NCBI RefSeq assembly: GCF_001463745.1
Contig: NZ_BBWJ01000004.1
Coordinates: forward strand, 124,001-188,000
Source: Aureimonas sp. AU22
GTDB taxonomy: Bacteria > Pseudomonadota > Alphaproteobacteria > Rhizobiales > Rhizobiaceae
DNA: 64,000 nucleotides
Reading direction: 5' to 3'
Positions within the stretch are counted from its first letter, which is position 1; every line of letters begins with the position of its first letter. A program made the translations under genes and the position numbers. The notes under the pieces are model-generated. The model did not search any database. It saw only the letters and a list, made by a program, of their open reading frames with translations, and was not told where the DNA came from. Below, one piece after another: positions 1 through 26,339 of this stretch.

Positions 1-888
1 CGGCAGGCGCGCGGCGCCGGCCTCGGCGACGACGTGCGGCATCCCCTCCCCGCGCGACAGCCAGACGAAGACGTCGAGCGCGGCGAGAAGCTCCGGGATA
101 TCGGCTCGGTCGCCGAGAAAGCGCAGGACCTTTCCGAGTCCGAGCGTCCGGGCGCGGTCGTGCAGCGCCCGCGCATAGTCCGGCAGAAAGGCGTCGGGCC
201 CGCCGATCACGAGGAAGCGCGCGTCGGGACGCATGCGCGACACGATGGCGGCGGCGTCGAGGAAGTCCTCGACGCGCTTCTTCGGGTCGAGCCGCCCGAC
301 CCAGCCGATCACGGGTGCCTCCGGCGGCAGGCCAAGGGCGAGGCGCGTCGGCCCTCGCGCAGCCGGGTCGAAGGCGTCGAGATCCACGGTGGACGGGATC
401 TCGACCGCATGGTGCTCGCGGCCCGGCATGCGCGAGGCAGCGGCATCCCGGATCGAGCGGCACACCCCGACATAGCGGTGGGTGAGGTGCTTCGGGCCGC
501 CGAGCGCTTCGGAGACCAGCCCGCCATGCTCGATCAGGGGCGGGCGCAGATGCAACCGCTCGAGCGCCGGATAGATGTCGGCGACGTTCTGGCAGGACAC
601 GACGACGTCGTAGCCGGCGAGCTTGCCGGCGAGGTAGCTGATCGTATCCTCGAAGGAGAGCGCGTAGGGCGTACGGTCGACAGGGATGCCAGCCGCCTCG
701 AGCTGCTCGTGCGTCTGCTCTGGCATCCCCTCCTTGCGGAAGCAGGCAACGACGTCGATCCGGTAGCGGCGGGGATCGAGATGGCGCGCGAGAAGCCGCA
801 CCTCGGTCTCCTCTCCGCCGACCACCAGCCAGGCGAAGACGAAGAGGATGCGGACGGGATCGTCCCCGCCTCCGAGCCGCTCCGCCAT
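1..888 (-). CDS. GT4-family glycosyltransferase, C-terminus cut by window edge
   Basis: Sugar transferase expected to act at the cytoplasmic membrane or in the cytosol during glycan assembly. The 296 visible codons start with Met-Ala-Glu-Arg and run open to position 1. Residues 1-170 are a Rossmann-like N-terminal half (ILFVFAWLVVGGEE near residue 14). The C-terminal half starts at WVGRLDPKKRVEDF (about residue 193), the usual entry to the GT4 donor-binding domain. SRGEGMPHVVAEAGA near residue 280 is the donor-binding EGxPxxxxEA motif. The ATG lies in a TGATG overlap with the stop of the upstream fusion gene, so it is translationally coupled and is the most distal visible gene of the cluster. 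Donor and acceptor cannot be read from sequence. Confidence 0.85.
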   Translation of the reverse strand, partial: MAERLGGGDDPVRILFVFAWLVVGGEETEVRLLARHLDPRRYRIDVVACFRKEGMPEQTHEQLEAAGIPVDRTPYALSFEDTISYLAGKLAGYDVVVSCQNVADIYPALERLHLRPPLIEHGGLVSEALGGPKHLTHRYVGVCRSIRDAAASRMPGREHHAVEIPSTVDLDAFDPAARGPTRLALGLPPEAPVIGWVGRLDPKKRVEDFLDAAAIVSRMRPDARFLVIGGPDAFLPDYARALHDRARTLGLGKVLRFLGDRADIPELLAALDVFVWLSRGEGMPHVVAEAGAARLP

Positions 889-3800
889 CACCCGCCGACC
901 TTGAACACGACCTGCAGGAAGTCCGGCCGCTCGTCCACGAGATGGCAGAGGAAGCGGGGCGCGTCCTCGAAGTCGACGACGTGGGTGATCATGTGCTCGG
1001 CGATGTCGGCCCCGCGCGCGGCGAGCAGCCCGACCGTCTCGGCTGCCAGTCGGCGACGGCTCCATGCGAAGCCGAGACCACGCGGCACGCGATTGATCTG
1101 CGCGCAGCGGATCGCCAGGCCGTTGTGGTGGAACTCCTCGCCGAGCCGCACGGCATCGGCGCCGCCCTGGTAGAAGGCGAGGTCTATCACCGTGCCCTGC
1201 GGGCGCAGCGCCCGCAGGGCCGCGTGGAGGCTGCGGGCATCCGCGCGAGTCTGGAACACGAAGTCCGCGCCCCGGTCCCCGCCGCCGTGGTGCCAGTTCG
1301 CCTTGGCGTAGGCCCAGGCCTCGTCCTCTTCCATCGCGGTAAAGCCAAGGGCTTCTATCCGCTGGCGCCGGAAGGGCGCGGGATCGGCGACGACGATCTC
1401 GGAAGCGCCTGCACGGGCGGCGAAGAGCGCGACCAGGAGGCCGACCACGCCGCCGCCGATCACCAGCACCGGGCGTCCGGCAACGCCCTGCCCGAGGCTC
1501 TCGACATGCGTCCCGGCGAGTTCGGCATCGGCATGAAGGAGGCCGTTGGCGGCGATTGGCCCCATCTGCGCGACGTAGATGCCGAGCATCGGATCGATGC
1601 CGGCGGGCAACTTGACGAGAAGGTCGTGGAACGGATCGGCCGTGTGGCCGCTCTTGTGCGCATAGGTCGACGCGACGACCTCGCCGGCCCGGAACCCCGG
1701 CGCGCGCGACTCGGCGACGCGCGCCACCTCCATGTAGCCGAGGAAGGGCACGGGATAGTGCTGGCCCGCCTCGCCCGGCACGAAGACGCCGCGCTCGCCG
1801 TCCCAGCGCGAATGGAGGTAGGGGTTGGTGTTCTTGAAGAAGGTGAGTTCCGTGCCAGCGGAGAAGCCGGTGAAGAGCGTGTCGAGGCGGACCTGGCCCT
1901 CGCCCGGCGGTCCTTCCTCGTACTGGAAATGGTAGGCTTCGCCCGGTCGCTCGATCCCGAGCGAGCGGACATGACGATGGCCCGGCGGCAGCGCGCCGGG
2001 CTCCGGACGGGGCGGAAACCGGAGCGGCGCGGGAGCAACGCGCGGGGTGGTGTCGGGCCGCAGGTGCACGACCTCGCCGGTGCGAGCCGATTCCACCACG
2101 GCGAGCGCCAGACGGTGGGTCGCCACGGCGTCGGCGTAGGGGCAGCGGATGCGGTTTTCCTCGCCGGCCACGGCGTCGATGAAGTCGCGATCCTCGCGCC
2201 AGACGGGATCGCCGTCGGCGCCCCGCACGGGGCGTCCCCGCCCGACATCCACCATGATGTCCCGATCGGTAAGCTCGATCGCCAGCTTGTCGGCGAAGAC
2301 GTGCAGCGCGACCCGGTGATTCCAGCCGAGGAGACAGGTTGAGGCGATGTTGGCGACGACGCCGCTCGCGAACGTCAGGCTGGCGGTCGAGGTGGTCGGC
2401 ACGTCGAGACCGGGGAAGTCCGCCCGGTCCTTGTGCGCCGCCCGGCCATAGACCTCGGTCACTTCGCCGACGAGGAAGCGCGCGAGATCGAGAAGATGCG
2501 TCGACTGCTCGACCATCTGGCCACCCGAACGATCCTCGTGCCACCACCATTGCGGCGGCGGCGTCGAATCCAGCCAGTAGCCGGACAGGAGCTGCGGCGG
2601 GTTCTCGGCGAGGAGTGCGCGGGCCTCGTCGACGGTGTCGAGATAGCGCCAGTGGTAGCCGACCGCGGTGACGAGGCCCTTCGCGGCGACCTCGGCGGCG
2701 ATCGCCTCCGCGGTGGCGAGGTCGAGCGAGACCGGCTTCTCGACGAAGAAGGGCAGCCCACGTTCGATCGCCGCACGCTCCGGCGCGCCGTGAGCGAAGG
2801 GCGGCACGCAGATGTAGACGGCGTCGGGCTTGCAGGCGTCCATCATGGCGACCGCGTCGGGGAAGGCGCGCGCCCCGAAACGCTGGGCGCACTCCTCGGC
2901 CCGTCCGAGATCGGTATCGGCGAAGCCGACGATCTCCACATCGGCGAAATGCTCGAGGATCCCGAGATGCCGCTGGGCGATGCCGCCGGCGCCCACGAAG
3001 CCGATCCGGATGGTCTTCATGCGTTGGTCCTCACTTGCTTCGTTCGAGGAGGCCGCGAGCCGACAGTAGAGTTCGGTGGTGGCGTTCGCCATGGCAGCGG
3101 CTTGGAATTGCGACACGAAGCGCTGACGGCCGGCCTGCGCCCTGTGATGGCGACCTTCGCCGTCGCCGATCGCATCGCACAGGGTCTCGGCCAGCGAGGC
3201 TGCATCGCCGGGCTCTGCAAGCCATCCGGTGCGCCCCGCTTCCACCGCTTCCGTCGTGCCGCCGATGCGGGTCGCCACCACCGGAAGCCCAGCGGCCATG
3301 GCCTCCAGCACCGCCAGCGGCAGGCCCTCGAAGAGCGAGGGAAGCACCAGGAGGTCGCAGGCCGCCATCAGGTCGGCGACGTCGTCGCGGTTGCCGAGGA
3401 AGCGCACCGTGTCTCCGAGACCGGCCGCCACGCTTCGCGTTTCCAGTGCGTGTCGAAGCGGGCCGTCGCCGACGACGAGGCAGACGAGGTTCGGGACCCC
3501 GCCACGCAGCTGCACCAGCGAATCGAGGAGAACGGTATGCCCCTTCTGTTCGGTCAGGCGCGCGACGACGAGCAGCGCGAACGCATCCGCGGGAAGATCG
3601 AGCGCACGGCGCGTCTCCTGTCGCGAGCGTTCAGGCGCACGGGGGTCGATGCCGTTGCGGATCGCATGAACCAGCGCTCGATCGACGCCCGCCGCGACGA
3701 CGCTTTCGGCGGCGGCTTCCGACACGCAGATCAGGGCGTCGAGGGTGCGTGTCGAAGCCAGATAGGTCTCGATCTGCGCTGCGTCGGTCAGCACGAAGGG

Positions 3801-4151
3801 CAGGTGTTCCGTGCGCAGCACGACCGGGACGCCCGCCTCGCGCCCCATAGTGGCGAGCGCCTGCCCCTCCCATCCGATCCCGGCATGGACATGGAGGATG
3901 TCGGGGCGCCAACGTTGGAGGGCTTCGCGCATTGATGCCGGGCTCGCCGCATCGAAACGGATCGCGGCCAGCCCTTGGCGCAGCGCGCGCTCGGTGAGTC
4001 CGCTCCGAGGGTCGGCGGCCACCGCCACGTCCATGCGGCTATCGAGGTGACGCGCCAGGGTCAGCATGTGTTCGCCGACACCCGAGGGGACCAGGCTGTC
4101 GGTCGCCAGGAGCAATCGCGAACGGCCCCGGTCGAAACCCGGTCGGCTCAA
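888..4151 (-). CDS. Three-domain fusion: GT4 glycosyltransferase, Gfo/Idh/MocA oxidoreductase, MDR zinc-type dehydrogenase
   Basis: A 1087-residue protein. Residues 1-375 are a complete GT4 glycosyltransferase (GVGEH near 26, VARLTEQKG near 197, FEGLPLAVLEAMAAGLP near 274). Residues 378-715 are a Gfo/Idh/MocA oxidoreductase opening with FVGAGGIAQRHLG and carrying the EKP catalytic motif near 473. Residues about 725-1087 are a medium-chain dehydrogenase with the nucleotide motif VIGGGVVGL near 897. Two-domain MDR-Gfo oxidoreductases are known from polysaccharide clusters; I recall them with MDR first, whereas here Gfo comes first and a transferase is attached. At the first junction, Met378 (3020) is preceded by GAGGA at 7-nt spacing, with a stop in another frame at 3033-3031, so this joint looks like a former gene boundary or an internal start. 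The second junction has no Met or Shine-Dalgarno nearby. The gene overlaps the upstream one by ATGA. A plausible role is transfer plus oxidation or epimerisation of the same sugar (inference). Confidence 0.85.
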   Translation of the reverse strand: MSRPGFDRGRSRLLLATDSLVPSGVGEHMLTLARHLDSRMDVAVAADPRSGLTERALRQGLAAIRFDAASPASMREALQRWRPDILHVHAGIGWEGQALATMGREAGVPVVLRTEHLPFVLTDAAQIETYLASTRTLDALICVSEAAAESVVAAGVDRALVHAIRNGIDPRAPERSRQETRRALDLPADAFALLVVARLTEQKGHTVLLDSLVQLRGGVPNLVCLVVGDGPLRHALETRSVAAGLGDTVRFLGNRDDVADLMAACDLLVLPSLFEGLPLAVLEAMAAGLPVVATRIGGTTEAVEAGRTGWLAEPGDAASLAETLCDAIGDGEGRHHRAQAGRQRFVSQFQAAAMANATTELYCRLAASSNEASEDQRMKTIRIGFVGAGGIAQRHLGILEHFADVEIVGFADTDLGRAEECAQRFGARAFPDAVAMMDACKPDAVYICVPPFAHGAPERAAIERGLPFFVEKPVSLDLATAEAIAAEVAAKGLVTAVGYHWRYLDTVDEARALLAENPPQLLSGYWLDSTPPPQWWWHEDRSGGQMVEQSTHLLDLARFLVGEVTEVYGRAAHKDRADFPGLDVPTTSTASLTFASGVVANIASTCLLGWNHRVALHVFADKLAIELTDRDIMVDVGRGRPVRGADGDPVWREDRDFIDAVAGEENRIRCPYADAVATHRLALAVVESARTGEVVHLRPDTTPRVAPAPLRFPPRPEPGALPPGHRHVRSLGIERPGEAYHFQYEEGPPGEGQVRLDTLFTGFSAGTELTFFKNTNPYLHSRWDGERGVFVPGEAGQHYPVPFLGYMEVARVAESRAPGFRAGEVVASTYAHKSGHTADPFHDLLVKLPAGIDPMLGIYVAQMGPIAANGLLHADAELAGTHVESLGQGVAGRPVLVIGGGVVGLLVALFAARAGASEIVVADPAPFRRQRIEALGFTAMEEDEAWAYAKANWHHGGGDRGADFVFQTRADARSLHAALRALRPQGTVIDLAFYQGGADAVRLGEEFHHNGLAIRCAQINRVPRGLGFAWSRRRLAAETVGLLAARGADIAEHMITHVVDFEDAPRFLCHLVDERPDFLQVVFKVGG

Positions 4152-6559
4152 ACCGCCGGCCCCGTCGTCGCGCTCGCAGCCGCCGTGCCGCCGCCCGCGC
4201 CGGTCCGCCGCGCCGTCAGGCGGGCGTAGGTCGCCAGCGCCTGCCCCACCACCTGATCCATGTTGTAGTAGCGATAGGTCGCCAGCCGCCCGACGAAGCT
4301 GACGTCAGGCGTGGCGTTGGCGAGCGCCTCGTAACGCCGGTAGAGCGCCTGGTTCTCCTCGCGCGGCACGGGATAGTAGGGATCGCCCTCGTCCGACGGA
4401 AACTCGTAGGAAATGCTGGTGCTCTCGTGCCGCTGGCCCGTCAGGTGCTTGTATTCGGTGATGCGCGTGTGGGCGACGTCGGCGGCGGGATAGTTCACCA
4501 CCGCCACCGGCTGGAACGTTTCGCGATCGTGCGTCTCGTGCCGGAAGGCGAGACTGCGATACGGCAGGCGACCGAAGCGATGATCGAAGAACTCGTCCAC
4601 CGGACCGGTGAAGACAGTGTGCGCGACATCGACGCGGTCGCGTAGCGAACGGTAGTCCGTCCCGGTGCGCACGGTGATGCGGGGATGGTCGAGCATGCGG
4701 CGGAACATTGCCGTGTAGCCGTCCGCCGGCATCGCCTGGAAGCGGTCGAGGAAGTAGCGGTCGTCGGTATCGGTACGGGTGGGCACGCGGGCGGTGACGG
4801 AGCGATCGAGCTCGGACGGGTCGAGGCCCCACTGCTTGCGGGTGTAGCCGCGAAAGAACGTCTCGTAGAGCTCGCGCCCGACCGCCGCGACCACGACATC
4901 CTCCGCCGTGCGGATCTCGGCCAGCGGCTCCGCTCGTGCCGCCAGGAACGCGGCGGCGTCCTCGTCGGTGCGCAGATCGAGGCCGTACAGCCCGTTGAGG
5001 GTGGTGCGGTTGATCGGCATCGGCAGATGATGGTCGCCGACGCGCGCCAGCACGCGGTGCTCGTAGGGGCGCCAGGCGGTAAAGCGGCCGAGGTAGTCCA
5101 CGACCTTCTGGCTGTTGGTGTGGAAGATATGCGGACCGTAGCGGTGCACGAGCACGCCGGCCGCGTCGTGGTGATCGAACGCGTTGCCGCCGATATGGTC
5201 GCGCCGGTCGATCACGAGGACGCGTTGCCCCGATCCTTCGGCGAGGCGTTCGGCCAGAACGGAGCCGGCGAACCCGGCGCCGACGACCAGCGCGTCGAAG
5301 CGCTCGCGCTTGCGCCCGACGTGCACCACGGGGCTCTGGGGAACCTCGTCGTTGGCCGCACGCGTGTTGGCCACCCGAGCCGCCACCACGGCGTCGGCCA
5401 GGATCGCGGACATCCGCCTTTGCGTCGCGTCCCACGAGATATCGGCGAGTGCCGCGTCGGCTTCCGCCAGCCACGGGCCGCTGCGGCCGAGCGCCAGTGC
5501 CACCTCGCAGGCCGCAATGAAACCGGCGGCGTCGGACGCGATCCGAACGCCCTCGAGTTCGCCGTAGTGCCGACCGACGTCGGCGATCGGCGTCGAAACG
5601 ACGGGGCGACCGCCCGCCAGATATTCCGGCGTCTTGGTCGGGCTGATGAAGCGCGTCGCCTCGTTGATGGCGAAGGGCATCAGGGCCACGTCCCAACCCG
5701 AGAGATAGGCGGGAAGCTCGCCGTAGCCCTTCGGCCCGAGCCAATGAATGTTGGGCAGGCGCGGCAGATCGGCGGGGTCGATCTTGGCGACGGGACCCAG
5801 CATCACCAGCGTCCAGTGCGGTCTTGCCGCCGCGACGTCGCGGACGAGATCGAGATCCAGCCGTTCGTCGATCACGCCGTAGAAGCCGAGGATCGGGCGC
5901 GCGAGACCCGCCTGATCGGCCGGTGCTTCGACGCTCTCGCTCCGTGCGCGGCCGAAGTGCTCGGCGTCGACGGCGGAGGGAAAGGGGTGGATGTTGGCGT
6001 GCCGGTGGCGCTTCGCCTCGTAGAGGCTCCAACCGCCGGTGAACACGGCGTCGGCCCGAGCCATCAGTTTCGTTTCGAGCTCGACGAGGCGCGGATCGGC
6101 GAAGCGGAAGGCGGACAGCTCGTCCATGCAGTCGTAGACGACCGCCGCGGCGTCCAGAGTTTGCGCGAAGGCGAACATCATCGGCGTGTAGAACCACAGC
6201 ACCGGCGCGGTGGTGGTCGCGGTCTCGACCAGCATGGCCAGGAGCCGCGAGAGACCCGCCTCACGCTCCTCGACGCTCCACCAGTGCGGCAGGCGGGGCC
6301 GCAGCGCGATCACCCCATCCTCCGGGAAGGGGTGGAATTCGAGATACGGCAGCGGATGATCGCAGGGGATGTGCTCTTCGAAGAAGAAGACCTTCTGGTC
6401 GCGCGCGAAGCGCCGCATGAGATGCTGCGGGCGCTGCGTCACGAAATCCCAGCGCAGGTGGGAGAAGCAGATGATGGGAACGTCGCCATGCGCAGGCTTG
6501 AATGCGTCGCCGAACCTTGCCCCCGGCGCACCGGAAGTCTCCGAGAATTCCGGCGTCAT
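4148..6559 (-). CDS. Fusion of a glycosyltransferase and UDP-galactopyranose mutase
   Basis: An 803-residue protein. Residues 1-400 form a glycosyltransferase of the type opening with FSHLRWDFVTQRPQHLM, with donor-site sequence FISPTKTPEYLAGGRPV near 310. From residue about 420 to the end is UDP-galactopyranose mutase: the FAD motif VGAGFAGS at 426-433, then RYGPHIFHT and YTRKQWG, and near the end YRYYNMDQ. The mutase converts UDP-galactopyranose to UDP-galactofuranose, using reduced FAD. Fusing it to a transferase suggests donor is made and used in place (inference). There is no Met near the junction, so the fusion looks genuine. I chose ATG 6559 because GAGGGG sits 5 nt upstream; GTG 6565 is also in frame. 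It follows the previous stop after 10 nt and overlaps the next gene by ATGA. Confidence 0.88.
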   Translation of the reverse strand: MTPEFSETSGAPGARFGDAFKPAHGDVPIICFSHLRWDFVTQRPQHLMRRFARDQKVFFFEEHIPCDHPLPYLEFHPFPEDGVIALRPRLPHWWSVEEREAGLSRLLAMLVETATTTAPVLWFYTPMMFAFAQTLDAAAVVYDCMDELSAFRFADPRLVELETKLMARADAVFTGGWSLYEAKRHRHANIHPFPSAVDAEHFGRARSESVEAPADQAGLARPILGFYGVIDERLDLDLVRDVAAARPHWTLVMLGPVAKIDPADLPRLPNIHWLGPKGYGELPAYLSGWDVALMPFAINEATRFISPTKTPEYLAGGRPVVSTPIADVGRHYGELEGVRIASDAAGFIAACEVALALGRSGPWLAEADAALADISWDATQRRMSAILADAVVAARVANTRAANDEVPQSPVVHVGRKRERFDALVVGAGFAGSVLAERLAEGSGQRVLVIDRRDHIGGNAFDHHDAAGVLVHRYGPHIFHTNSQKVVDYLGRFTAWRPYEHRVLARVGDHHLPMPINRTTLNGLYGLDLRTDEDAAAFLAARAEPLAEIRTAEDVVVAAVGRELYETFFRGYTRKQWGLDPSELDRSVTARVPTRTDTDDRYFLDRFQAMPADGYTAMFRRMLDHPRITVRTGTDYRSLRDRVDVAHTVFTGPVDEFFDHRFGRLPYRSLAFRHETHDRETFQPVAVVNYPAADVAHTRITEYKHLTGQRHESTSISYEFPSDEGDPYYPVPREENQALYRRYEALANATPDVSFVGRLATYRYYNMDQVVGQALATYARLTARRTGAGGGTAAASATTGPAV

Positions 6560-6569
6560 GGTCACCCCT

Positions 6570-7901
6570 CTATCGTGGCGTCCGAACTAACCGATCACGC
6601 GTTCGTTCCGCATGTGGCGGATGGAAGCGGCTGGATTGTTGTAGCAACGACTGGAACCGCTTGATCGTATGCGGCCACGTCCAGCGGTCCGCCGCCACTT
6701 GGCGCGGCCGAAAGTCCGGCAGCGTGTCCAGCATCTCGGCGATCGCCTGCCCGAAATTCTCGGCGGGCGCGGTTCGTCCGGTCTCGGCGGTGATGAACTG
6801 CAGTCCGCAGGCGAGGCGCTCGTTGGCGAGGACCGGCAGCCCCGCCAGCATGTATTCGGTGAGGATCGCCGGCGCGCCGTCGTCCACCCCGCAGACGACC
6901 CCGATCTTCGCAAGGTTCATCAGGCGATTGACCTCGGCGAACGGGACGCCCGGCGGACCGACGAAATCGACGTCGAGGCCCCGCTCGGCAGCATCCGAGC
7001 GCAGGACCTCGCCCATCTCGCCATAGCCGAAGACGCAGAGCGCCTTGAGGCGGCGCGGCGCCTGGGCTAACGCATCGAAGAGGATGTCGTGCCGCTTGTA
7101 GGGCTGCGCCGCCGCGACATAGACGACGTCGTAGGGCTTCTCGCCGCCGAGCGGCCGAAAGGTCTCCGCGTCGGCGAATTCCGGACCGATCGGCATGATC
7201 GCGGTGGCCATGCCGGGATGACGCGCCTCGACCTCGCTGGACTGCCACTGCGCTCCGGTGAGAACGAGATTGAAATGCCGGCTGACGGCAGGCGGCACAC
7301 GCAGCGCCGGCGCGTCGATCGAGTTGTAGACCTTGAAGCTGTCGCCGCAGGCGGCAAGGATCTCCTCGCTCACTCCGAGCCCCAAGACCACGAGGATGTG
7401 AGGCGCGCCGACGGCTTCGATGAAGCGCAGCATGTGCCGGGACCGGAAGGGAGCCTCGTCCGCATCCAGCCGGAACACCCGGCGCGCCAGATGGCGGCTG
7501 TCGCGCCGAAGCGCAGGCACGTCGCGGGAGCGGGCGTGGTGCCAGATCTCGGCATGATCGGCTAGGCCGGCGGCGACGCAGGCGAGCGGCAGTCGCTCGA
7601 GATAGCCACCGGCGACGCGCAGGCCATCCCGATGGCCGCCGTGGAGGCCAGGCGGCACGTACGGCTCATCGCGGAGCCGCTCCGGCCAGTCGTCGGCGCC
7701 CTCATCCAGCATCCGCGTGTCGCCGTCGTGGGGCGGCCATCCTTCGACGAGGTCTCCCACCACCACGATGGAGGGCCGTTCCGTCAGTTCCGCGCGCTCG
7801 ACCAACCCCAACCGAATGCCTCCGCGACCGTCTGTCGCCGACATCACATTGGACAAGCCGGGCCAGTGTCGAGGCAGCCCGACCGGGAACAGCCCCTCCA
7901 T
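6570..7901 (-). CDS. Glycosyltransferase (GT4-like)
   Basis: A 443-residue protein with the two-domain shape of GT-B transferases. Residues about 265-420 hold the recognisable donor domain: VYVAAAQPYKRHDILFDAL (near 271), then VGPPGVPFAEVNRLM, then GAPAILTEYMLAGLPVLAN near 358, which is the conserved acidic loop followed by a Gly-Leu-Pro-Val strand. The N-terminal half is poorly conserved. The start is uncertain: ATG 7901 has AAGGA directly against it with no spacing, and ATG 7844 has no Shine-Dalgarno. It sits 33 nt below the Gfo-type oxidoreductase and 10 nt above the mutase fusion, so it belongs to the same transcription unit. The stop is TAG. Confidence 0.75.
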   Translation of the reverse strand: MEGLFPVGLPRHWPGLSNVMSATDGRGGIRLGLVERAELTERPSIVVVGDLVEGWPPHDGDTRMLDEGADDWPERLRDEPYVPPGLHGGHRDGLRVAGGYLERLPLACVAAGLADHAEIWHHARSRDVPALRRDSRHLARRVFRLDADEAPFRSRHMLRFIEAVGAPHILVVLGLGVSEEILAACGDSFKVYNSIDAPALRVPPAVSRHFNLVLTGAQWQSSEVEARHPGMATAIMPIGPEFADAETFRPLGGEKPYDVVYVAAAQPYKRHDILFDALAQAPRRLKALCVFGYGEMGEVLRSDAAERGLDVDFVGPPGVPFAEVNRLMNLAKIGVVCGVDDGAPAILTEYMLAGLPVLANERLACGLQFITAETGRTAPAENFGQAIAEMLDTLPDFRPRQVAADRWTWPHTIKRFQSLLQQSSRFHPPHAERTRDRLVRTPR

Positions 7902-7934: not shown

Positions 7935-8957
7935 TCAGCCGCGCACGCGCGTCGGCGCACCCGATGCTTCGGACGATGTCAGGATCGCGTCGATGAGGGC
8001 ATGGACCTTCAACGCCTCGCGTCCGGAAACGCGTGGGGATCGCGCCTCGGCGATGCTGTCCAGGAAGTCTGCGAGCAGGCGCTCGTGGTTCTGGCTCGAG
8101 AAGGCCATCGGGTCGGAACCCGTGCCGGTGCCCGTCGTCCCGTCCTCGGTCCGCCATTGACGACCGTCCGCGAGAAAGACGTCGACGCCCGACGAATCGA
8201 CGCGCAGGGAGCCGGACGTACCGAACAGGTCGATCGCATCGGGAAAGCCCGGAAAGGCCGCGGTGGTCACGCTGACGGCGCCGAGTGCGCCGCTCGCGAA
8301 CCGCATGGCGGCATGGGCGACATCCTCGGTTTCCATCCGGTGGGCGCGACTTGTCGCGGCAAAGCCCGCCACCTCCTCCGGCAGCCCGACAAGCGCGATC
8401 ATCGCGTCGAGCGTATGGATACCTTGCGTGAGGAGAACGCCGCCGCCGTCTCGTGCACGCGTCCCGCGCCCGGCCTCGTCGTAGTAGCCCTGCGGGCGCC
8501 AGTTGCTGAGGCGCACCGAGACGCTCACCACCTCGCCGAGCGCCCCGTCCATCAACAGGCGGGCCGCCTCCTCGATCGACGGGCGAAAGCGGTTCTGGAG
8601 GACGACGCCAAGCCGCACGTCGGCCCGCTCCGCCGCCTCCACGAGGTCGCGCGATCGTCCGCCGTCGATCTCCAGCGGCTTTTCGAGGAGAATGTGCTTG
8701 CCCGCGGCGCTGGCGCGACGGACGAGATCCAGATGCGTGGAAGGCGGCGTGAGGATCAGGACCGCGGGGATCGACGGATCATCGAGGATCGCCTCGAGGC
8801 TGGTCGCCATGGGGAGGCCATGCGCCCGCTCGAATGCCGCCCGCCGCTCCGGCGAGGGACTGAACGCCGCCGCCACCTCCACCCGGTTTCCCAGGACGCG
8901 GAGCGCCGCGACATGCGGCGCCGAGGCCATGCCGAGGCCGATGATCCCGATACGCAA
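7935..8957 (-). CDS. Gfo/Idh/MocA-family NAD(P)-dependent sugar oxidoreductase
   Basis: A 340-residue protein, typical length for the family. The Rossmann nucleotide-binding motif GIIGLGMAS is at residues 4-12 and the catalytic EKP (LLEKPLEIDGG) near residue 92. The C-terminal half is the alpha/beta substrate domain (GGVLLTQGIHTLDAM, near 173). Members oxidise or epimerise sugars or nucleotide sugars. It starts with TTG at 8957, supported by GGAGG 8 nt upstream. It is the first gene of the minus-strand glycan cluster and is divergent from uxaC across 160 bp. It could supply a modified sugar to the transferases downstream (inference); a catabolic role with the uronate operon is the alternative. 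Confidence 0.85.
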   Translation of the reverse strand: MRIGIIGLGMASAPHVAALRVLGNRVEVAAAFSPSPERRAAFERAHGLPMATSLEAILDDPSIPAVLILTPPSTHLDLVRRASAAGKHILLEKPLEIDGGRSRDLVEAAERADVRLGVVLQNRFRPSIEEAARLLMDGALGEVVSVSVRLSNWRPQGYYDEAGRGTRARDGGGVLLTQGIHTLDAMIALVGLPEEVAGFAATSRAHRMETEDVAHAAMRFASGALGAVSVTTAAFPGFPDAIDLFGTSGSLRVDSSGVDVFLADGRQWRTEDGTTGTGTGSDPMAFSSQNHERLLADFLDSIAEARSPRVSGREALKVHALIDAILTSSEASGAPTRVRG

Positions 8958-9117
8958 ACCCGTGCCTCCGCCGACCGACGACCTGTGCGGCTTCAGCGTT
9001 GCGATCGCCAGCCGCTGCCCCTCCCGAAAGTCGTCTTATGAATTTTCAAGTTGTATGTTGACATGATTTCGTAAGCAGCGCTACCGTTCGCTTGCCTTGG
9101 GAGGGGCTTGGGAGCGC
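8958..9117. promoter_or_regulatory. Divergent promoter region between glycan cluster and uronate operon
   Basis: This 160-bp gap separates two divergent operons. An AT-rich core at 9035-9070 contains the small inverted repeat ATGT-TG-ACAT (9055-9064), resembling the TGT-N2-ACA core bound by FCD-type GntR regulators. The same bases contain TTGACA (9058-9063), which with TACCGT at 9082-9087 (18-nt spacer) makes a possible plus-strand promoter. The symmetry is short, so this is a candidate operator for the GntR protein at 13551, not a demonstrated one. Confidence 0.35.
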
Positions 9118-10524
9118 ATGGCATTCGTCGACCCGAACTATCTGTTTCCGGCCGAACCCGGCGTTCGCTCCGTCGCCCGCAACCTCTACGACAGCGTGCG
9201 CGATCTTCCGATCGTCAGCCCGCATGGGCACACCGATCCGCGCTGGTATGCGGAAGATCAGCCGTTTCCCGATCCGGCGCAACTTCTGATCGTTCCCGAT
9301 CACTACATTTTCCGAATGCTCTTCAGTCAGGGGCACCGGCTCGAAGACTTCGGCGTGCCGACACTGGATGGCGGGCCCGTCGAGACCGACGGCCGCGAGA
9401 TCTGGCGACGTTTTGCAAAGTCGTATTATCTCTTTCGCGGCACGCCGACGCGTGCCTGGCTCGACTACACGTTCCAGACGCTGTTCGGGCTCAGCGAGCC
9501 GCTCTCGCCGGAGACCGCGGACCGGCAGTACGACACCATCGCCGAGTGCCTCGCAACCGATGCCTTCCGTCCGCGCGCCCTGTTCGAGCGCTTCGGCATC
9601 GAGGTCATCGCCACTACCGACGGCGCGCTGGACGATCTGTCCTCGCACAAGGCGATCACCGCGAGCGGCTGGAGCGGCCGGGTCCTGCCGACCTATCGGC
9701 CGGACGCCGTGGTGGATCCGGACTTCGAAGGGTTCTCCCGCAATCTCGACCGTCTCGGCGAGATGACCGGCGCCGATACGGGCGTCTGGAGCGGCTATCT
9801 CGACGCGCATCGGCAGCGGCGCGAGGCCTTCAAGGCGCTCGGCGCAACCGCCACCGATCACGGTCACCCGACGGCCGAGACCGCCAACCTCGATCCGGCG
9901 GAGGCGGCACGCCTGTTCGACAGGGTGAGGACGGGCGCGGCGGAGGCCGGAGATCGCGCCCTGTTTCGCGCCCAGATGCTGACCGAAATGGCACGCATGA
10001 GCGCCGAGGACGGCCTCGTGATGCAGATCCATCCGGGCTCCATGCGCAACCATTCGGCCGCGATGTTCGCACGCTTCGGTCGCGACAAGGGCTTCGATAT
10101 CCCGACCCGCACCGACTACGTCAGCGCCCTTCGGCCGCTCCTCGACGCGGTCGGAACCGACCCGCGCGCCTCGGTCATCCTCTTCACGCTCGACGAGACC
10201 GTTTACGCGCGCGAACTCGCGCCGCTGGCGGGCGTCTACCCCGCGCTGAAGCTCGGCCCCGCCTGGTGGTTCCACGACAGCCCTGAGGGCATGCGCCGCT
10301 TCCGCGAGAGCACGACCGAGACGGCGGGCTTCTACAACACGGTCGGCTTCAACGACGACACGCGCGCCTTTCCGTCGATCCCGGCGCGCCACGACGTCGC
10401 CCGGCGGGTGGACTGCACCTTCCTCGCGCGCCTCGTGACCGAACATCGCCTGCGCGAGGACGAGGCGTACGAGCTCGCGAGCGAGCTGGCCTACGGCCTC
10501 GCAAAGAAGGCCTACCGTCTTTGA
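9118..10524 (+). CDS. uxaC: Glucuronate isomerase
   Basis: A 468-residue uronate isomerase interconverting D-glucuronate with D-fructuronate and D-galacturonate with D-tagaturonate, the first step of hexuronate breakdown in the cytosol. The N-terminus has the metal-binding motif [11 protein letters not shown] (near residue 32) of the amidohydrolase-like fold. [20 protein letters not shown] (near 290) and [18 protein letters not shown] (near 381) are also typical of UxaC. ATG 9118 is chosen over an in-frame TTG at 9097 because UxaC proteins begin just before this segment and GGGAG lies upstream. It leads an operon with a TRAP importer, a GntR regulator, kduI, kduD and a cupin, which fits its role. 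Confidence 0.95.
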
Positions 10525-10571
10525 ATCCGCAGAACAGGGCGACAAGCCCGGAACCTTGGAGGAACACCCGC

Positions 10572-11546
10572 ATGCGCATGATGAGGCTTCTGGCGGGCGT
10601 TGCGCTCGCATCGCTCCTGGGCGTCGGCGCGGCCGGCGCGCAGACCGTGCTTCGCTCGTCCGACACCCATCCCGATGGGTATCCCACCGTCGAGGGCGTC
10701 AAGTATTTCGGCGAGCTCGTGAAGGAGCGCACCGGCGGTCGCTACGAGGTGGAGGTCTACCACTCCGCCCAGCTCGGCGAGGAAAAGGACACGATCGAGC
10801 AGGTCCGCTCCGGCGTGATCCAGCTGAACCGCGTCTCGATGGCGCCCTTCAACGGCACCGTGAAGGAAACCATCGTCCCCGCCCTTCCCTACGTGTTCCG
10901 AGACGAGGAGCACATGCACAAGGTCATGGACGGGCCGATCGGCGAGCAGATCAAGGCGGCCTTCGAGCCCGCGGGCCTCGTGGCCCTCGCCTTCTACGAC
11001 GCCGGCTCGCGCTCGTTCTACAATTCGAAGAAGCCGATCAAAACGGTTGCGGACCTCGCCGGCATGAAGTTCCGCGTCATCCAGTCCGACATCTTCGTCG
11101 ACATGACCTCGGCGCTCGGCGCGAACGCGACGCCCATGCCCTACGGCGAGGTGTACTCCTCGATCGAGACCGGCGTCATCGACGGGGCGGAGAACAACTT
11201 CCCGAGCTACGACACCGCCCGCCACGTCGAAGTGGCGAAATACTATTCGCTCGATCAGCACACGATCCTTCCCGAAGTCTTCGTGATGAACAAGATGGCC
11301 TTCGACGCGCTGACGCCGGAGGACCAGGAACTGTTCCGTACGGCCGCCAAGGACAGCGTCGGCCGCCAGCGCGAACTCTGGACGGCGATGACCGAGAACT
11401 CGCGGAAGAAGGTCGAGGAGGCCGGCGCCGAGATCAACGAGGTCGAGAAGCAGGGCTTCATCGATGCGATGAAGCCGGTCTACGACAAGCACGTGAAGGA
11501 CGACGTCCTGCGCAAGCTCGTAGAGGACGTGCGCGCGACGCAGTAA
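10572..11546 (+). CDS. TRAP transporter solute-binding protein (DctP family)
   Basis: A 324-residue periplasmic binding protein that captures an organic acid for the TRAP permease encoded just downstream. Residues 1-22 are a Sec signal peptide ending in the cleavage site GAAGA-Q. The body has the DctP-family features: [20 protein letters not shown] near residue 65, and a conserved Arg in GMKFRVIQS (near 167) that in this family binds the ligand carboxylate. Substrate is inferred as a hexuronate or unsaturated uronate because of neighbouring uxaC, kduI and kduD. GGAGG lies 12 nt before ATG 10572; ATG 10578 is also possible. It lies 47 nt after uxaC and is followed by a strong hairpin. Confidence 0.93.
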
Positions 11547-11556
11547 GCGCGTCGAG

Positions 11557-11581
11557 GGTCCCGGCGCGCGGCGCCGGGACC
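11557..11581 (+). promoter_or_regulatory. Strong intercistronic hairpin after the TRAP binding-protein gene
   Basis: A perfect 11-bp GC stem (11557-11567 pairing with 11571-11581) closes a three-base loop, 10 bases after the dctP stop codon, with no T tract. Such hairpins after binding-protein genes usually protect the upstream mRNA or partly block transcription, giving more binding protein than permease. That reading is inference. Confidence 0.6.
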
Positions 11582-11662
11582 GCTCCCCCGCCATGCCTCT
11601 CGACGGTCCGGGCGACGCGCCGGAGCGCGGCGCATGGCCCCTGCCCCGCAACGGATGGTCCG

Positions 11663-12253
11663 ATGTCCGCACAGCCGACGCTTGGCGTCCCGATCCTGTC
11701 CCGCTTCAATCTCGCCGCGCTGTACCTCGCGGGGATCGGGCTCATCCTGATGACGGTGATGGTCGGGTGGCAGGTCTTCTGCCGCTACGTCCTCAACGAT
11801 TCGCCGAGCTGGACCGAACCCGGCGCCGTGATGTTGATGAGCTGGTTCATCTTCCTCGGCGCGGCGGTGGGCGTGCGCGAGAACAACCATCTCGGCTTCG
11901 ACGTCCTTCTCTACGTCGTGCCGCCGGGCGGCAAGAAATGGCTCCGGATGATCTCCGACATCGCCATTCTCGTCTTCGGGATCGGCATGGTCTGGTACGG
12001 CATCGGCCTCGTGTCGCTGACCGCGAACACTACGTTGCCCGCCCTCGGCATCTCCGGTGCCTGGGACTACTACCCGATCGTCGGAGGCGGGGTGCTCGTG
12101 TCCCTCTTCGCGCTGGAGCGGATCATCCTGCGTGCGAGCGGCGCGCCGATCGACGCCGCCCTCGACGAAGTGGCCCCGGCCGAAATCGCGGTCGAACTCG
12201 AAAACATCTCCGACGTCCGCAAGGACGCGGCCGACCTCGCGCGGAAAGGCTGA
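11663..12253 (+). CDS. TRAP transporter small permease (DctQ family)
   Basis: A 196-residue inner-membrane protein with four hydrophobic segments (about residues 17-38, 52-70, 94-117 and 134-156), the DctQ pattern. Typical sequence is VGWQVFCRYVLNDSPSWTEP near residue 34. It pairs with the large permease encoded 5 bp downstream to form a sodium-driven importer. The start is the ATG at 11663, just ahead of the first membrane segment. The charged 40-residue tail after the last segment is longer than in many DctQ proteins and its role is unknown. It lies 116 bp after dctP, beyond the hairpin. Confidence 0.92.
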   Translation: MSAQPTLGVPILSRFNLAALYLAGIGLILMTVMVGWQVFCRYVLNDSPSWTEPGAVMLMSWFIFLGAAVGVRENNHLGFDVLLYVVPPGGKKWLRMISDIAILVFGIGMVWYGIGLVSLTANTTLPALGISGAWDYYPIVGGGVLVSLFALERIILRASGAPIDAALDEVAPAEIAVELENISDVRKDAADLARKG

Positions 12254-12258
12254 TCGCC

Positions 12259-13539
12259 ATGGAGCTCTGGATTCTCTTCGGCAGCTTCACGGCCCTGATG
12301 CTGATCGGCACGCCGATCGCCTTCTGCCTCGGCATTTCGAGCCTTGCGACCGTCGCCTACATGGGCCTACCGCCGCTCGTCGTGTTCCAGCGGCTGAACT
12401 CGGGGATGAGCGTCTTCTCGATGCTCGCGATCCCCTTCTTCATCTATGCCGGCGATCTGATGGTGCGCGGCGGCATCGCGGGCCGCATCGTCGCCTTCGC
12501 GGCCTCGGTCATCGGCCACGTGCGCGGCGGCCTTGGCCAGGTGAACATCCTCACCTCGACGCTCTTCGGCGGCATTTCCGGCTCCGCTGTGGCCGAGGCG
12601 GCGGCGGTCGGCGGCATCATGATCCCGCAGATGAAGGCGCGCGGCTACGGCGCCGATTACGCGGTGAACGTCACGTCGATGGCCGCGCTGATCGCGCTCC
12701 TGCTGCCGCCGTCCCATAACATGATCATCTATTCGATCTCGGCGGGCGGGCGCATCTCGATCGCCGACCTCTTCACCGCCGGCATCATTCCCGGCCTTCT
12801 TCTGGCCCTGTCGCTGATGGTGACGGCCTACATTGTGGCGCGAAAGCGCGGCTATCCGACCGAGCCGTTCCAGGGCTTCCTCGTCATCGGCCATCTGCTG
12901 GCGACGGCGATCCCCGGCCTTCTCCTCATCGCCATCATCTTCGGCGGCGTGCGCTCGGGCATCTTCACGGCGACCGAGAGTTCCTGCATCGCGGTGCTCT
13001 ACGCGCTTCTCGTGACGATCTTCATCTACCGCCAGCTTACCTGGGCCGACTTCGTGCATGCCACGATGGGCGCGGTGCGCACCACGGCCATGGTGCTCCT
13101 GATCATCGGAACCGCTGCTGCCTTCTCGTGGCTGATGGCGTTCCTGCGCGTGCCGGCCACGCTCGTGGACTGGATGCAGGGCCTGTCCGACAACCCGATC
13201 ATGATCCTCCTCCTTCTCAACGTCCTGATGCTGCTCCTCGGCACCTTCATGGACATGGGACCGACGATCATCATCACGACGCCGATCTTCCTGCCGATCG
13301 CCACCGCCTACGGCGTCGATCCCGTGCATTTCGGGGTCATCATGATCCTGAACTACGGGATCGGCCTCAACACGCCGCCTGTCGGCGGTGTGCAGTTCGT
13401 GGCCTGCGCCGTCGGCAAGATCACGGTATGGGAGGCGATGCGCTCCGTCTGGCCGTTCTACGGAGCGGGCGTCGTGGTCCTGCTTCTCGTGACATACATT
13501 CCCGCTTTGTCGCTGTGGCTGCCGGCCGCGTTCCGATAA
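12259..13539 (+). CDS. TRAP transporter large permease (DctM family)
   Basis: A 426-residue, very hydrophobic protein with about 11-12 membrane segments, the transport channel of the TRAP system. Signature stretches are AIPFFIYAGDLMVRGGIAGR (near residue 57), GGISGSAVAEAAAVG (near 105), LLLGTFMDMGPTIIITTPIF (near 318) and GIGLNTPPVGG (near 362), all typical of DctM. It moves the bound acid inward with sodium. It starts 5 bp after the dctQ stop. With dctP and dctQ it forms a complete three-component system. Substrate by context is a hexuronate or unsaturated uronate (inference). Confidence 0.95.
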   Translation: MELWILFGSFTALMLIGTPIAFCLGISSLATVAYMGLPPLVVFQRLNSGMSVFSMLAIPFFIYAGDLMVRGGIAGRIVAFAASVIGHVRGGLGQVNILTSTLFGGISGSAVAEAAAVGGIMIPQMKARGYGADYAVNVTSMAALIALLLPPSHNMIIYSISAGGRISIADLFTAGIIPGLLLALSLMVTAYIVARKRGYPTEPFQGFLVIGHLLATAIPGLLLIAIIFGGVRSGIFTATESSCIAVLYALLVTIFIYRQLTWADFVHATMGAVRTTAMVLLIIGTAAAFSWLMAFLRVPATLVDWMQGLSDNPIMILLLLNVLMLLLGTFMDMGPTIIITTPIFLPIATAYGVDPVHFGVIMILNYGIGLNTPPVGGVQFVACAVGKITVWEAMRSVWPFYGAGVVVLLLVTYIPALSLWLPAAFR

Positions 13540-13550
13540 GGGGTTTGTCG

Positions 13551-14345
13551 ATGTCCGAAACATCCGGGGAGTTGCGGGTCGAGCGCAAGGCCAAGCTGTC
13601 GGAGACCGTCGTGCAGGCGCTGCGGGCGCAGATCATCGCCGGCGACTTCTCCGTCGGCGAGAAGCTGCCGACCGAGACGCGCATGTCGGAGATCTTCGGC
13701 GTCAGCCGCACCGTGGTGCGCGAGGCGGTGGCGATCCTCTCGGCCGACGGGCTCGTCGAGCCGCGGCACGGAGCGGGCGTCTTCGTGCGGATCAACCCGC
13801 AGCGCCGGATCGCCGCGATCGCCGCGGATGTCGGCGACCGCATCAGTCAGGCGATCAACGTCCTCGAAGTGCGGATGGGTCTCGAGATCGAGAGCGCGGG
13901 TCTGGCCGCCGAGCGGCGCAACCCGTCGCAGGAGGCCCGGATCCAGGAGGCCTTCTTCGAGTTCGACCGGCTCCTCCATCGCGGCGAGCAGACGGGCAAG
14001 GCCGACTTCGCCTTTCATCGCGAGATCGCGGCCGCGACCAACAACCCGTTCTACGTCGACATCCTCGACGCGCTCGGCGACCGCACCATCCCCTGCGACC
14101 GCACGTCCCCCTGGTACTCGGTCGAGGCGCTCTCGCCCCAGTACCTGATGGGCCTGCAACGCGAGCACCTGGCCGTTCTCCAGGCGATCTCGGCGCGCGA
14201 TCCGGACGCGGCGCGCGACGCGATGCGCCGGCACCTCTTCGCCGCCCAGCAGCGCTACCGCCGCCGGCTGACCTACCAGCAGGAGTCCTACGCCGCGGCG
14301 GCCGTTCCACAGACCGTTTCCGAACCGAAATCAGGACCATCATGA
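13551..14345 (+). CDS. GntR-family regulator, FCD (FadR-like) subfamily
   Basis: A 264-residue DNA-binding regulator. Residues 15-80 are the winged helix: GDFSVGEKLPTETRMSEIFG and VSRTVVREAVAILSADGLVE, followed by the wing PRHGAGVFV. Residues 100-240 are the all-helical FCD effector domain with its metal-binding Asp-His pattern (FHREIAAATNNPFYVDILD near 160). It sits inside the uronate operon, so it most likely senses a uronate intermediate and represses the operon by binding in the 8958-9117 gap (inference). The stop overlaps kduI by ATGA, so regulator and enzyme are translated together. ATG 13551 lies 12 bp after dctM. Confidence 0.93.
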   Translation: MSETSGELRVERKAKLSETVVQALRAQIIAGDFSVGEKLPTETRMSEIFGVSRTVVREAVAILSADGLVEPRHGAGVFVRINPQRRIAAIAADVGDRISQAINVLEVRMGLEIESAGLAAERRNPSQEARIQEAFFEFDRLLHRGEQTGKADFAFHREIAAATNNPFYVDILDALGDRTIPCDRTSPWYSVEALSPQYLMGLQREHLAVLQAISARDPDAARDAMRRHLFAAQQRYRRRLTYQQESYAAAAVPQTVSEPKSGPS

Positions 14346-15178
14346 CGATCGATCACGAGACACGCTTCGCCGTCCACCCGGAAGCCGCGGCCGCGATGGG
14401 CACGGAGGAGCTTCGGCGCCACTTCCTGATCCAGGGCCTGTTCGAGACGGGTCGCATTCGCCTGTCCTATACGCACTACGACCGGATGATCGTCGGTGGC
14501 GCCGTCCCGACGACCGAGGAGATCGCGCTCGAGACGATCCGCCCGAACGGTACGGCACGGTTCCTGGAGCGTCGGGAACTCGTTCTCGTCCATGTCGGCG
14601 GTGGCGAGGGACATGTTCGCGTCGGCGAAGAGAGCCACGTGCTGAAAGTCCGCGACATGCTCTATGTCGGCCTCGGGCAGGAGGTCGCGCTTCGCTCGGC
14701 CGATGGTGCGAACCCCGCGCGCTTCTATCTCCTGTCGGCCCCGGCCCACAAAACCCTTCCGACGCGCCACCTCCCGCACGAGTCCGCCAAGCGCATCGAT
14801 CTCGGTGCCCGCGCGACCTCGAACGAGCGCTCGATCTTCCAGTACACGACGACGATCGAGACCTGCCAGATCGTCGTGGGCATGACCAAGCTCGCCGAGG
14901 GGTCGGTCTGGAACACGATGCCGGCCCACGTCCACGACCGCCGCATGGAAGCCTACCTGTATTTCGACCTCGCCGACGAGGCGCGTGTGTTCCACCTGAT
15001 GGGCGAGCCCACCGAGACGCGACACATCGTGATGGCGAACGAGGAGGCCGTCGTCTCGCCGCCCTGGTCGATCCATTCGGGCTGCGGAACCTCCTCGTAC
15101 TCGTTCGTCTGGGCGATGGCCGGCGACAACGTCGACTACACCGACATGGACCCCGCTCCCCTGAAGGACCTGCGCTGA
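14342..15178 (+). CDS. kduI: 5-dehydro-4-deoxy-D-glucuronate isomerase
   Basis: A 278-residue cupin-fold zinc isomerase converting 5-keto-4-deoxyuronate to 3-deoxy-D-glycero-2,5-hexodiulosonate, a step in pectin and other unsaturated uronate breakdown. The zinc-ligand region is PAHVHDRRMEAYLYFDL near residue 195, with the later histidine in PPWSIHSGCGTSSYSFVWAM near 240. Length and layout match KduI. It overlaps the GntR stop by ATGA and the kduD start by TGATG, so three products are coupled. Presence of KduI without any visible pectate or other polysaccharide lyase here implies that unsaturated uronates are imported ready-made or made elsewhere. Confidence 0.95.
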   Translation: MTIDHETRFAVHPEAAAAMGTEELRRHFLIQGLFETGRIRLSYTHYDRMIVGGAVPTTEEIALETIRPNGTARFLERRELVLVHVGGGEGHVRVGEESHVLKVRDMLYVGLGQEVALRSADGANPARFYLLSAPAHKTLPTRHLPHESAKRIDLGARATSNERSIFQYTTTIETCQIVVGMTKLAEGSVWNTMPAHVHDRRMEAYLYFDLADEARVFHLMGEPTETRHIVMANEEAVVSPPWSIHSGCGTSSYSFVWAMAGDNVDYTDMDPAPLKDLR

Positions 15179-15936
15179 TGGACCTCAACTCCTTCAGCCT
15201 TGCGGGCCGACGCTTCGCGGTGACGGGCGCAAACACCGGCATCGGCCAGGGGATCGCCGTCGCGATCGCGCGCAGCGGCGGGTCGGTGATCGGCTTCGGC
15301 CGCTCCGACATGAGCGAGACATCGGCGCTCGTAAGCGCGGCTGGCGGCACGTTCTCGCCCACGCTCGTCGATCTCTCGGACCTTCGGTCCGGCGTCGAGG
15401 CGCTGGAGGCCGCGATGGACGAGGCTCCGCTCGACGGGCTCGTGAACAATGCCGGCATCATCCGGCGTGCGGACTCGGTCGACCTTACCGAAGACGACTG
15501 GGACGCCGTGGTCGACCTCAACCTCAAGGCGACGTTCTTCCTGTCGCAGAGCTTCGGCCGGCGCTGCCTCCAGGCGGGACGGCCGGGGCGGATCGTCAAC
15601 ATCGCCTCGCTCCTGTCGTTTCAGGGGGGCATCCGCGTCCCCTCCTATACGGCCTCGAAGCACGGAGTCGCCGGGATCACGAAGATCCTCGCCAACGAAT
15701 GGGCCGCGCGCGGCGTCAACGTCAACGCCATCGCACCCGGCTATATCGAGACCAACAACACGGCGGCGCTGCGGGCCGACCCGGACCGGACGCGGGCGAT
15801 CCTCGAGCGCATACCGGCTGGCCGCTGGGGCGCCGCAGAGGATATCGGAGCCGCGGCGGCCTTTCTGCTCGCCGACGCCTCCCGCTACATCCACGGCGTC
15901 ATCCTGCCGGTGGACGGCGGCTGGCTTGCGAGGTGA
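15178..15936 (+). CDS. kduD: 2-dehydro-3-deoxy-D-gluconate 5-dehydrogenase (short-chain dehydrogenase)
   Basis: A 252-residue short-chain dehydrogenase. The nucleotide motif TGANTGIGQGI is at residues 17-27, NNAG at about 90, the catalytic Ser in IASLLS near 142, and the YxxxK pair in YTASKHG near 157. KduD reduces the KduI product to 2-keto-3-deoxygluconate, feeding the Entner-Doudoroff route. The assignment over a generic dehydrogenase rests on the adjacent, translationally coupled kduI. The kinase and aldolase that would finish the route are not in this window. The last residues, VDGGWLAR, match the usual KduD ending. Confidence 0.93.
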   Translation: MDLNSFSLAGRRFAVTGANTGIGQGIAVAIARSGGSVIGFGRSDMSETSALVSAAGGTFSPTLVDLSDLRSGVEALEAAMDEAPLDGLVNNAGIIRRADSVDLTEDDWDAVVDLNLKATFFLSQSFGRRCLQAGRPGRIVNIASLLSFQGGIRVPSYTASKHGVAGITKILANEWAARGVNVNAIAPGYIETNNTAALRADPDRTRAILERIPAGRWGAAEDIGAAAAFLLADASRYIHGVILPVDGGWLAR

Positions 15937-26247: not shown

Positions 26248-26339
26248 CGCTTGCCTTCCCCCATGCTCGCGGCGGCGAGCCGCGTCGTTTCCGTCGTTTC
26301 GAACCCGTCGCGCGCGGACCACAGTTGCACGCGTACCCG

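Follow-up and report, generated by a model that had tools for sequence, protein, structure and literature searches.

The analysed window is a 64,000-nt stretch of a contig from Aureimonas sp. AU22. One open frame on its reverse strand encodes, in a single chain, a GT4-type glycosyltransferase, a Gfo/Idh/MocA sugar dehydrogenase and a medium-chain (MDR) dehydrogenase (GTc-Gfo-MDR, Table 1). This order, read from the frame by the initial annotation, agrees with the open reading frame and with the Pfam matches, which comprise Glyco_transf_4 (aa 23–170) and Glycos_transf_1 (aa 177–344, E = 1.2e-39) in the first part, GFO_IDH_MocA (aa 381–499, E = 6.7e-25) and a C3 domain (aa 525–622) in the second, and ADH_zinc_N (aa 903–998, E = 1.7e-9) in the third. 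No searched family model spans the whole chain. The TTG start of the gene shares four nucleotides (TTGA) with the stop of the upstream gene, and its stop shares four (GTGA) with the GTG start of the downstream gene. A fold model of the fusion protein reaches a pTM of 0.62 and drops under 50 at residues 370–376, and the domain arrangement it shows is not trustworthy.

Table 1 Operon genes, domains of the fusion protein and elements of the putative nested start (positions in the window)
Feature	Position	Strand	Details
GTa, GT4-type glycosyltransferase	6570..7901	(-)	443 aa as called; true start uncertain
GTb (weakly TuaH-like) fused to UDP-galactopyranose mutase (GLF)	4148..6565	(-)	805 aa
Fusion gene GTc-Gfo-MDR	888..4151	(-)	1087 aa, 116.8 kDa, one open frame
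GT4 domain	3120..4085	(-)	aa 23–344; Pfam, motifs, fold match to HepE 4xsu
Nested Shine–Dalgarno GAGGA	3028..3032	(-)	7 nt ahead of the nested ATG
Nested start codon ATG (Met378)	3018..3020	(-)	would give a 710-aa, 76.8-kDa Gfo-MDR form (residues 378–1087)
Gfo/Idh/MocA domain	2052..3011	(-)	about aa 381–700
MDR domain	891..1976	(-)	about aa 726–1087; without zinc-ligand Cys
GTd fused to GH1-like glycosidase	1..891	(-)	cut by the window edge; whole gene L101:16639-18891(-), 750 aa

All three parts keep the motifs of their families. We compared the window protein with 48 of the 54 triple fusions described below, a 49-row alignment (A3) from which L050, L058, L071, L102, L103 and L104 were left out. 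GT4 enzymes have a GT-B fold, an E-x7-E motif and an Arg/Lys pair that binds the donor; E275-x7-E283, R198 and K203 are invariant in all 49 rows, and the fold search matches the GT4 part to HepE 4xsu (TM 0.84 by target length). The Rossmann domain of the Gfo part scores 88.6 bits against a Pfam cut-off of 24, and the Lys of its EKP motif (Lys472), Glu548 and the catalytic His552 are again invariant (49/49). Searched alone, the MDR part reaches 39.6 bits for ADH_zinc_N against a cut-off of 31.8, which places it in the MDR superfamily; S764-A-G-T-E768 is present in all 49 rows and Asp923 in 48. A zinc-dependent alcohol dehydrogenase was rejected as its identity, because no catalytic Cys zinc ligand is found in its N-terminal half: residues 725–1087 hold two Cys in all, at 1016 and 1069, and none in 725–1015. 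Gly-Tyr-Met at 805–807, placed by eye, presumably stands where zinc enzymes have Gly-His-Glu. Both Rossmann parts carry an acidic residue after β2 (Asp412/Asp414, 49/49; Asp923 as above). Such a residue favours NAD, so that on general knowledge NAD is the suggested cofactor of both.

GTc-Gfo-MDR occupies third place in a conserved operon, GTa / GTb-GLF / GTc-Gfo-MDR / GTd-GH1-like, which has eight catalytic parts: four GT4-type glycosyltransferases, a UDP-galactopyranose mutase, the Gfo dehydrogenase, the zinc-less MDR and a GH1-like glycosidase. The second part of the 750-aa GTd protein has no Pfam match at E 0.001, and a model of the homologue in locus L021 (pLDDT 90.3) matches many glycosyltransferases first and, further down the list, GH1 glycosidases. 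Asn519-Glu520 and Glu669, which we take to be the catalytic residues, are invariant (40/40). For comparison we used 83 loci, namely the best 80 of 131 relatives plus three plasmid records, a choice that makes the set lean to close relatives; several same-genus loci also seem to recur among the 80. Within 40 kb around the fusion, only the operon genes had relatives in the 80 loci (35% identity over half the length), in a comparison for which the gene caller took an antisense frame at GTd-GH. The gene order is kept in most of the 83 loci; besides contig ends, the exceptions are L068, with a different order, and L075, L084, L097 and L098, in which GTa was not found. Ten further loci place GTa at the far end in four cases and gave no GTa in three.

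Fusion extends to the other operon genes, with GTd-GH joined in 77 of the 83 loci and GTb-GLF in 58. A match to GLF or GTb is missing in 24 of the 83, two of them (L058 and L097) at contig ends, with the other genes kept, so the product may vary, with or without galactofuranose. In one genome, a single 1223-aa frame (L115 3078-6749) joins GTa, GTb and the mutase, a further fusion in the operon.

Elsewhere in the window, a second Gfo/Idh/MocA gene (7935-8957, (-)) is separated from the upstream end of the operon by 33 nt; none of the 80 loci gave a relative of it (35% identity, half the length), and the gene therefore seems peculiar to this strain. A sugar-acid-use cluster follows at 9097-15936 (+), with UxaC, a TRAP transporter (DctP and a 648-aa DctM-domain protein), KduI/IolB and a short-chain dehydrogenase. 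One protein encoded at 24997-26322 (-) consists of a DUF5996 domain and then a GCN5-related acetyltransferase domain.

The same architecture recurs in related genomes, as the initial annotation had proposed to check. Among the 83 loci, all alphaproteobacterial, 54 carry the triple fusion, 27 have GT and Gfo fused with MDR as the next gene, and two have all three genes split; the ten further loci comprise seven all-split and three GT-Gfo arrangements, one of the latter (L116) probably being the same record as L075. The annotation had also worried that a one-base indel or base-calling error might have joined two genes at the first joint, where Met378 follows a GAGGA at 7-nt spacing and a stop in another frame, a TGA, lies at 3033-3031. 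These signals are all present. The joint, however, is unbroken in 81 of the 83 loci and in seven of 21 same-genus genomes, our own included, where the fusion runs without an internal stop, and this conserved frame refutes a sequencing artefact for the gene family; we consider a one-base error or a recent indel vanishingly improbable. Five of the six other same-genus carriers match over the full length at 76–82%, and the sixth (genome G012) matches in two pieces, at 80% and 63%, within one open frame. The seven best full-length relatives, among the best 80 of 131, are all Aureimonas.

Split homologues, which the annotation had named as a sign against a genuine fusion if they showed an extra or missing base near 3031-3080, do exist (L066, L081 and L108–L114), but as other arrangements rather than corrected reads: the Gfo ATG overlaps the GT stop (ATGA-type) in seven of the nine and follows it after 7 nt in two, and the proteins are only about 60–70% identical. 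The three-enzyme chain is thus genuine and the fear of an indel falls away, and the Met378 and Shine–Dalgarno that had raised it are better read as a putative conserved nested start. A joint that resembles an artefact of frame fusion can prove to be conserved.

Parts that one genome fuses and another keeps as neighbours point to one pathway. A 21-kb stretch of Nonomuraea has adjoining relatives of Gfo (49%) and MDR (54%); the remaining operon parts match nothing there strongly, GTc giving one weak 74-aa match, and the two dehydrogenases thus resemble a pair. We also considered, and dropped, the idea that some genomes fuse MDR to the following gene, since MDR has its own open reading frame of 368–399 aa in the ten further loci. 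A rapidly built tree of Gfo and MDR together places Aureimonas triple fusions beside Sphingomonas double fusions, and those of Rhizobiaceae next to two double fusions and the split genes of Devosia. This mixed placement suggests that the joint between Gfo and MDR probably formed or broke at least twice; the tree, with long branches for L068, L094, L075, L060, L088, L081 and the outgroup, serves only for placing the triple fusions. The distribution is uneven, with 15 positive genomes among 199 of the family and one (our own) among 385 of the class; MDR is found in two of 398 genomes of the phylum, our own included. At least 80% of the protein is covered in 56 plasmid records, mostly from Sinorhizobium and Rhizobium. 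The graded series from all-split through GT-Gfo to GT-Gfo-MDR identifies the eight enzyme parts as belonging to a single pathway of plant and soil bacteria.

The first joint is the most unusual part of the gene, and its candidate nested start is widely, although not universally, conserved. The position of Met378 is M in 48 of the 49 aligned rows. Counting a Shine–Dalgarno of four or more bases at 4–11 nt from an ATG, the GT-Gfo joint has an ATG in 68 of the 81 fused loci and an ATG with such a Shine–Dalgarno in 55; elsewhere in these genes, 36 of 929 in-frame ATGs have one. When the 21 bases upstream were shuffled 1,000 times, 6.0 loci qualified on average and 14 at most, against the 55 observed, the loci being related so that such counts are not independent trials. 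The other joints, searched over wider stretches, stay at background (Gfo-MDR 1/54, GTb-GLF 2/58, GTd-GH 1/77), and a nested start was rejected for each; when GTG and TTG are also allowed, the Gfo-MDR joint reaches 6/54 versus 104/1784 elsewhere. Without the ATG condition, Shine–Dalgarno-like 4-mers at upstream shifts occur in 26 of 81 loci at 300 nt, 10 of 81 at 150 nt and 0–3 of 81 at six other shifts. An internal start codon with its Shine–Dalgarno is therefore conserved above background, and absent in part of the loci. Triple fusions have both in 46 of 54, an ATG without such a Shine–Dalgarno in seven and no ATG in one; of 27 double fusions, 12, mostly Sphingomonas, lack an ATG at the joint, and six have one without a 4-base Shine–Dalgarno. 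In two of the three further fused loci (L115 and L116), the ATG is present and such a Shine–Dalgarno absent.

The conservation reaches beyond the encoded peptide. Linker residues 370–377 share 20% pairwise identity versus 79% over residues 378–396, and the 48 rows hold 43 different 7-residue stretches. Even so, 41 of 48 triple fusions retain the Shine–Dalgarno, where 2,000 synonymous recodings gave 20.8 ± 2.5 (maximum 29). Across the fused loci its codon phase differs (34, 17 and 4 loci), so that it is written, for example, in Lys-Asp or in Gln-Gly-His codons. Since the Shine–Dalgarno persists despite varied peptide and codon phase, selection seems to hold the nucleotides themselves.

These counts bear on a different explanation, that only the long protein is made and the ATG and Shine–Dalgarno are the remnant of a once separate Gfo gene. 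Split genes do exist, with the Gfo ATG at the same place in five of nine and 5–8 codons earlier in four, and many Sphingomonas loci have lost the site without the gene splitting, as a remnant would allow. A remnant would have to account for a Shine–Dalgarno retained at twice the synonymous-recoding value ahead of Met378, and in differing codon phases and spacings; such a Shine–Dalgarno is, moreover, rarer in split genes (4/9) than in triple fusions. We consider the remnant explanation unlikely.

The reading that we hold to be somewhat probable, from the sequence comparisons, is one gene with two starts in a glycoside pathway with redox editing. Translation from the TTG at 4151 would yield the 117-kDa three-enzyme protein, and translation from Met378, with its own Shine–Dalgarno, the 77-kDa Gfo-MDR protein. 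The long (116.8 kDa) and short (76.8 kDa) forms would share the Gfo-MDR core, and the short form may let an oligomeric redox core assemble with fewer glycosyltransferase arms. The operon would make a glycoside or small oligosaccharide. Gfo would oxidise one sugar hydroxyl to a keto group with NAD+, probably after transfer, and MDR would reduce the keto sugar using the NADH formed by Gfo; such a cycle could give an inverted or moved configuration with no net cofactor use. A small cytosolic glycoside is favoured as the product, because no flippase, polymerase or exporter is found among the four conserved operon genes; an ABC-transporter ATPase family occurs in the flanks of 12 of the 83 loci, at varying positions and on either strand. 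The suggestion of the initial annotation that a single protein might install and then modify a sugar is compatible with these findings.

The order of steps could also be the reverse, with the dehydrogenases acting before transfer on a nucleotide sugar or a free cyclitol and the fusion channelling the donor to the glycosyltransferase. This alternative competes with the step order and not with the dual start. The highest-ranking NCBIfam models are inositol 2-dehydrogenase and UDP-GlcNAc 3-dehydrogenase for the Gfo part, and the MDR list includes scyllo-inosose 3-dehydrogenase, all far under their cut-offs; no NCBIfam model exceeds its cut-off for the Gfo, MDR or glycosidase part. Scyllo-inositol dehydrogenases are among the fold neighbours and agree with action before transfer, but the same list holds DgpA1 and NAD-dependent glycoside hydrolases, which act on glycosides, and GenD2. 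GenD2 oxidises a sugar already within a glycoside, gentamicin A2 (PMC4340712). We regard action before transfer as possible, if short of probable.

The genomic surroundings suggest that the pathway is possibly stress-linked. Flanks averaged 11.1 kb per locus, with open reading frames from 81 of the 83 loci grouped by single linkage, and the 30 largest families were considered. Among these, DUF892 occurs in 14 of 83 loci, (long) catalase in nine, and Ku and Pyrid_ox_like in four each, across several genera (L021–L104), with one representative of each of the four families checked. For the family to which the window belongs, 132 DUF892 matches are listed in 101 genomes, which sets the chance expectation at about 0.3% per locus, a rough control, as the loci also include other families; the recurrence of DUF892 above this expectation hints at stress islands. 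The EcfG-type promoter motif (GGAAC-N16/17-NGTT) of the general stress response gave a weak signal upstream of the operon in a subset, 17 of 80 loci, versus 8 of 80 on the reverse strand and a shuffled mean of 1.4 (maximum 6). The strict form occurs in 5 of 80 loci, with three on the reverse strand, and a first scan had given 13 of 83 loci, with 5 of 83 in reverse. None was found upstream of the operon in the window, where the scans did not uphold such a promoter. A paper on EcfG in S. melonis lists glycosyltransferases and a Zn-alcohol dehydrogenase, and no tie between these and the operon genes was established (PMC6599016).

With these elements added, the two starts would supply both the full GT-dehydrogenase-dehydrogenase and a free double dehydrogenase; an oligomeric redox core with glycosyltransferase arms on some of its subunits would then edit the freshly added sugar in a closed NAD cycle to give an undescribed stress-linked glycoside. 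As a whole, this fuller picture is doubtful.

Each part has known relatives. HepE 4xsu, a retaining GT-B enzyme of glycosyltransferase family 4, resembles the GT4 part in both Pfam halves, the E-x7-E motif and the R198/K203 pair, whereas the window protein adds two dehydrogenases at the C-terminal side. The Gfo part shares the Rossmann domain, the EKP Lys, His552 and the C-terminal domain with Gfo/Idh/MocA sugar dehydrogenases such as the inositol dehydrogenases and GenD2; many members of this family have Asp where the window protein has Glu548. Identity with inositol 2-dehydrogenase (IolG) was rejected (TIGR04380, 116.2 bits against a cut-off of 355). The MDR part is like the zinc-free members of its superfamily in its ADH_zinc_N domain, with BchC and threonine dehydrogenase among weak matches, and we take its S-x-GTE type to be BchC-like; it departs from the superfamily in lacking the zinc-ligand Cys and in an N-terminal half that stays under every Pfam cut-off.

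'Bi-domain oxidoreductases', in which an MDR domain comes first and a Gfo domain second, combine the same two enzyme kinds in a single chain. In the window protein the order is reversed, Gfo then MDR by Pfam, which excludes it from this class, and a glycosyltransferase stands ahead of both. Open-licence papers yielded none on these oxidoreductases under three spellings, and no description of a GT-Gfo-MDR fusion or of the operon was found in that literature. For the nested start, a paper on Xanthomonas provides a precedent in HrcQ/HrcQC, where an in-frame internal translation start yields the C-terminal part as a separate protein (PMC8553256). HrcQ is a secretion-system protein whose short product has been shown, whereas the gene described here encodes a multi-enzyme and its nested start is read from nucleotide conservation. 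If that start is used, bacteria may adjust, from a single gene, how much of an enzyme is fused and how much is free. The parts of the operon are of known kinds; their combination, and a putative nested start within a multi-enzyme, are new.
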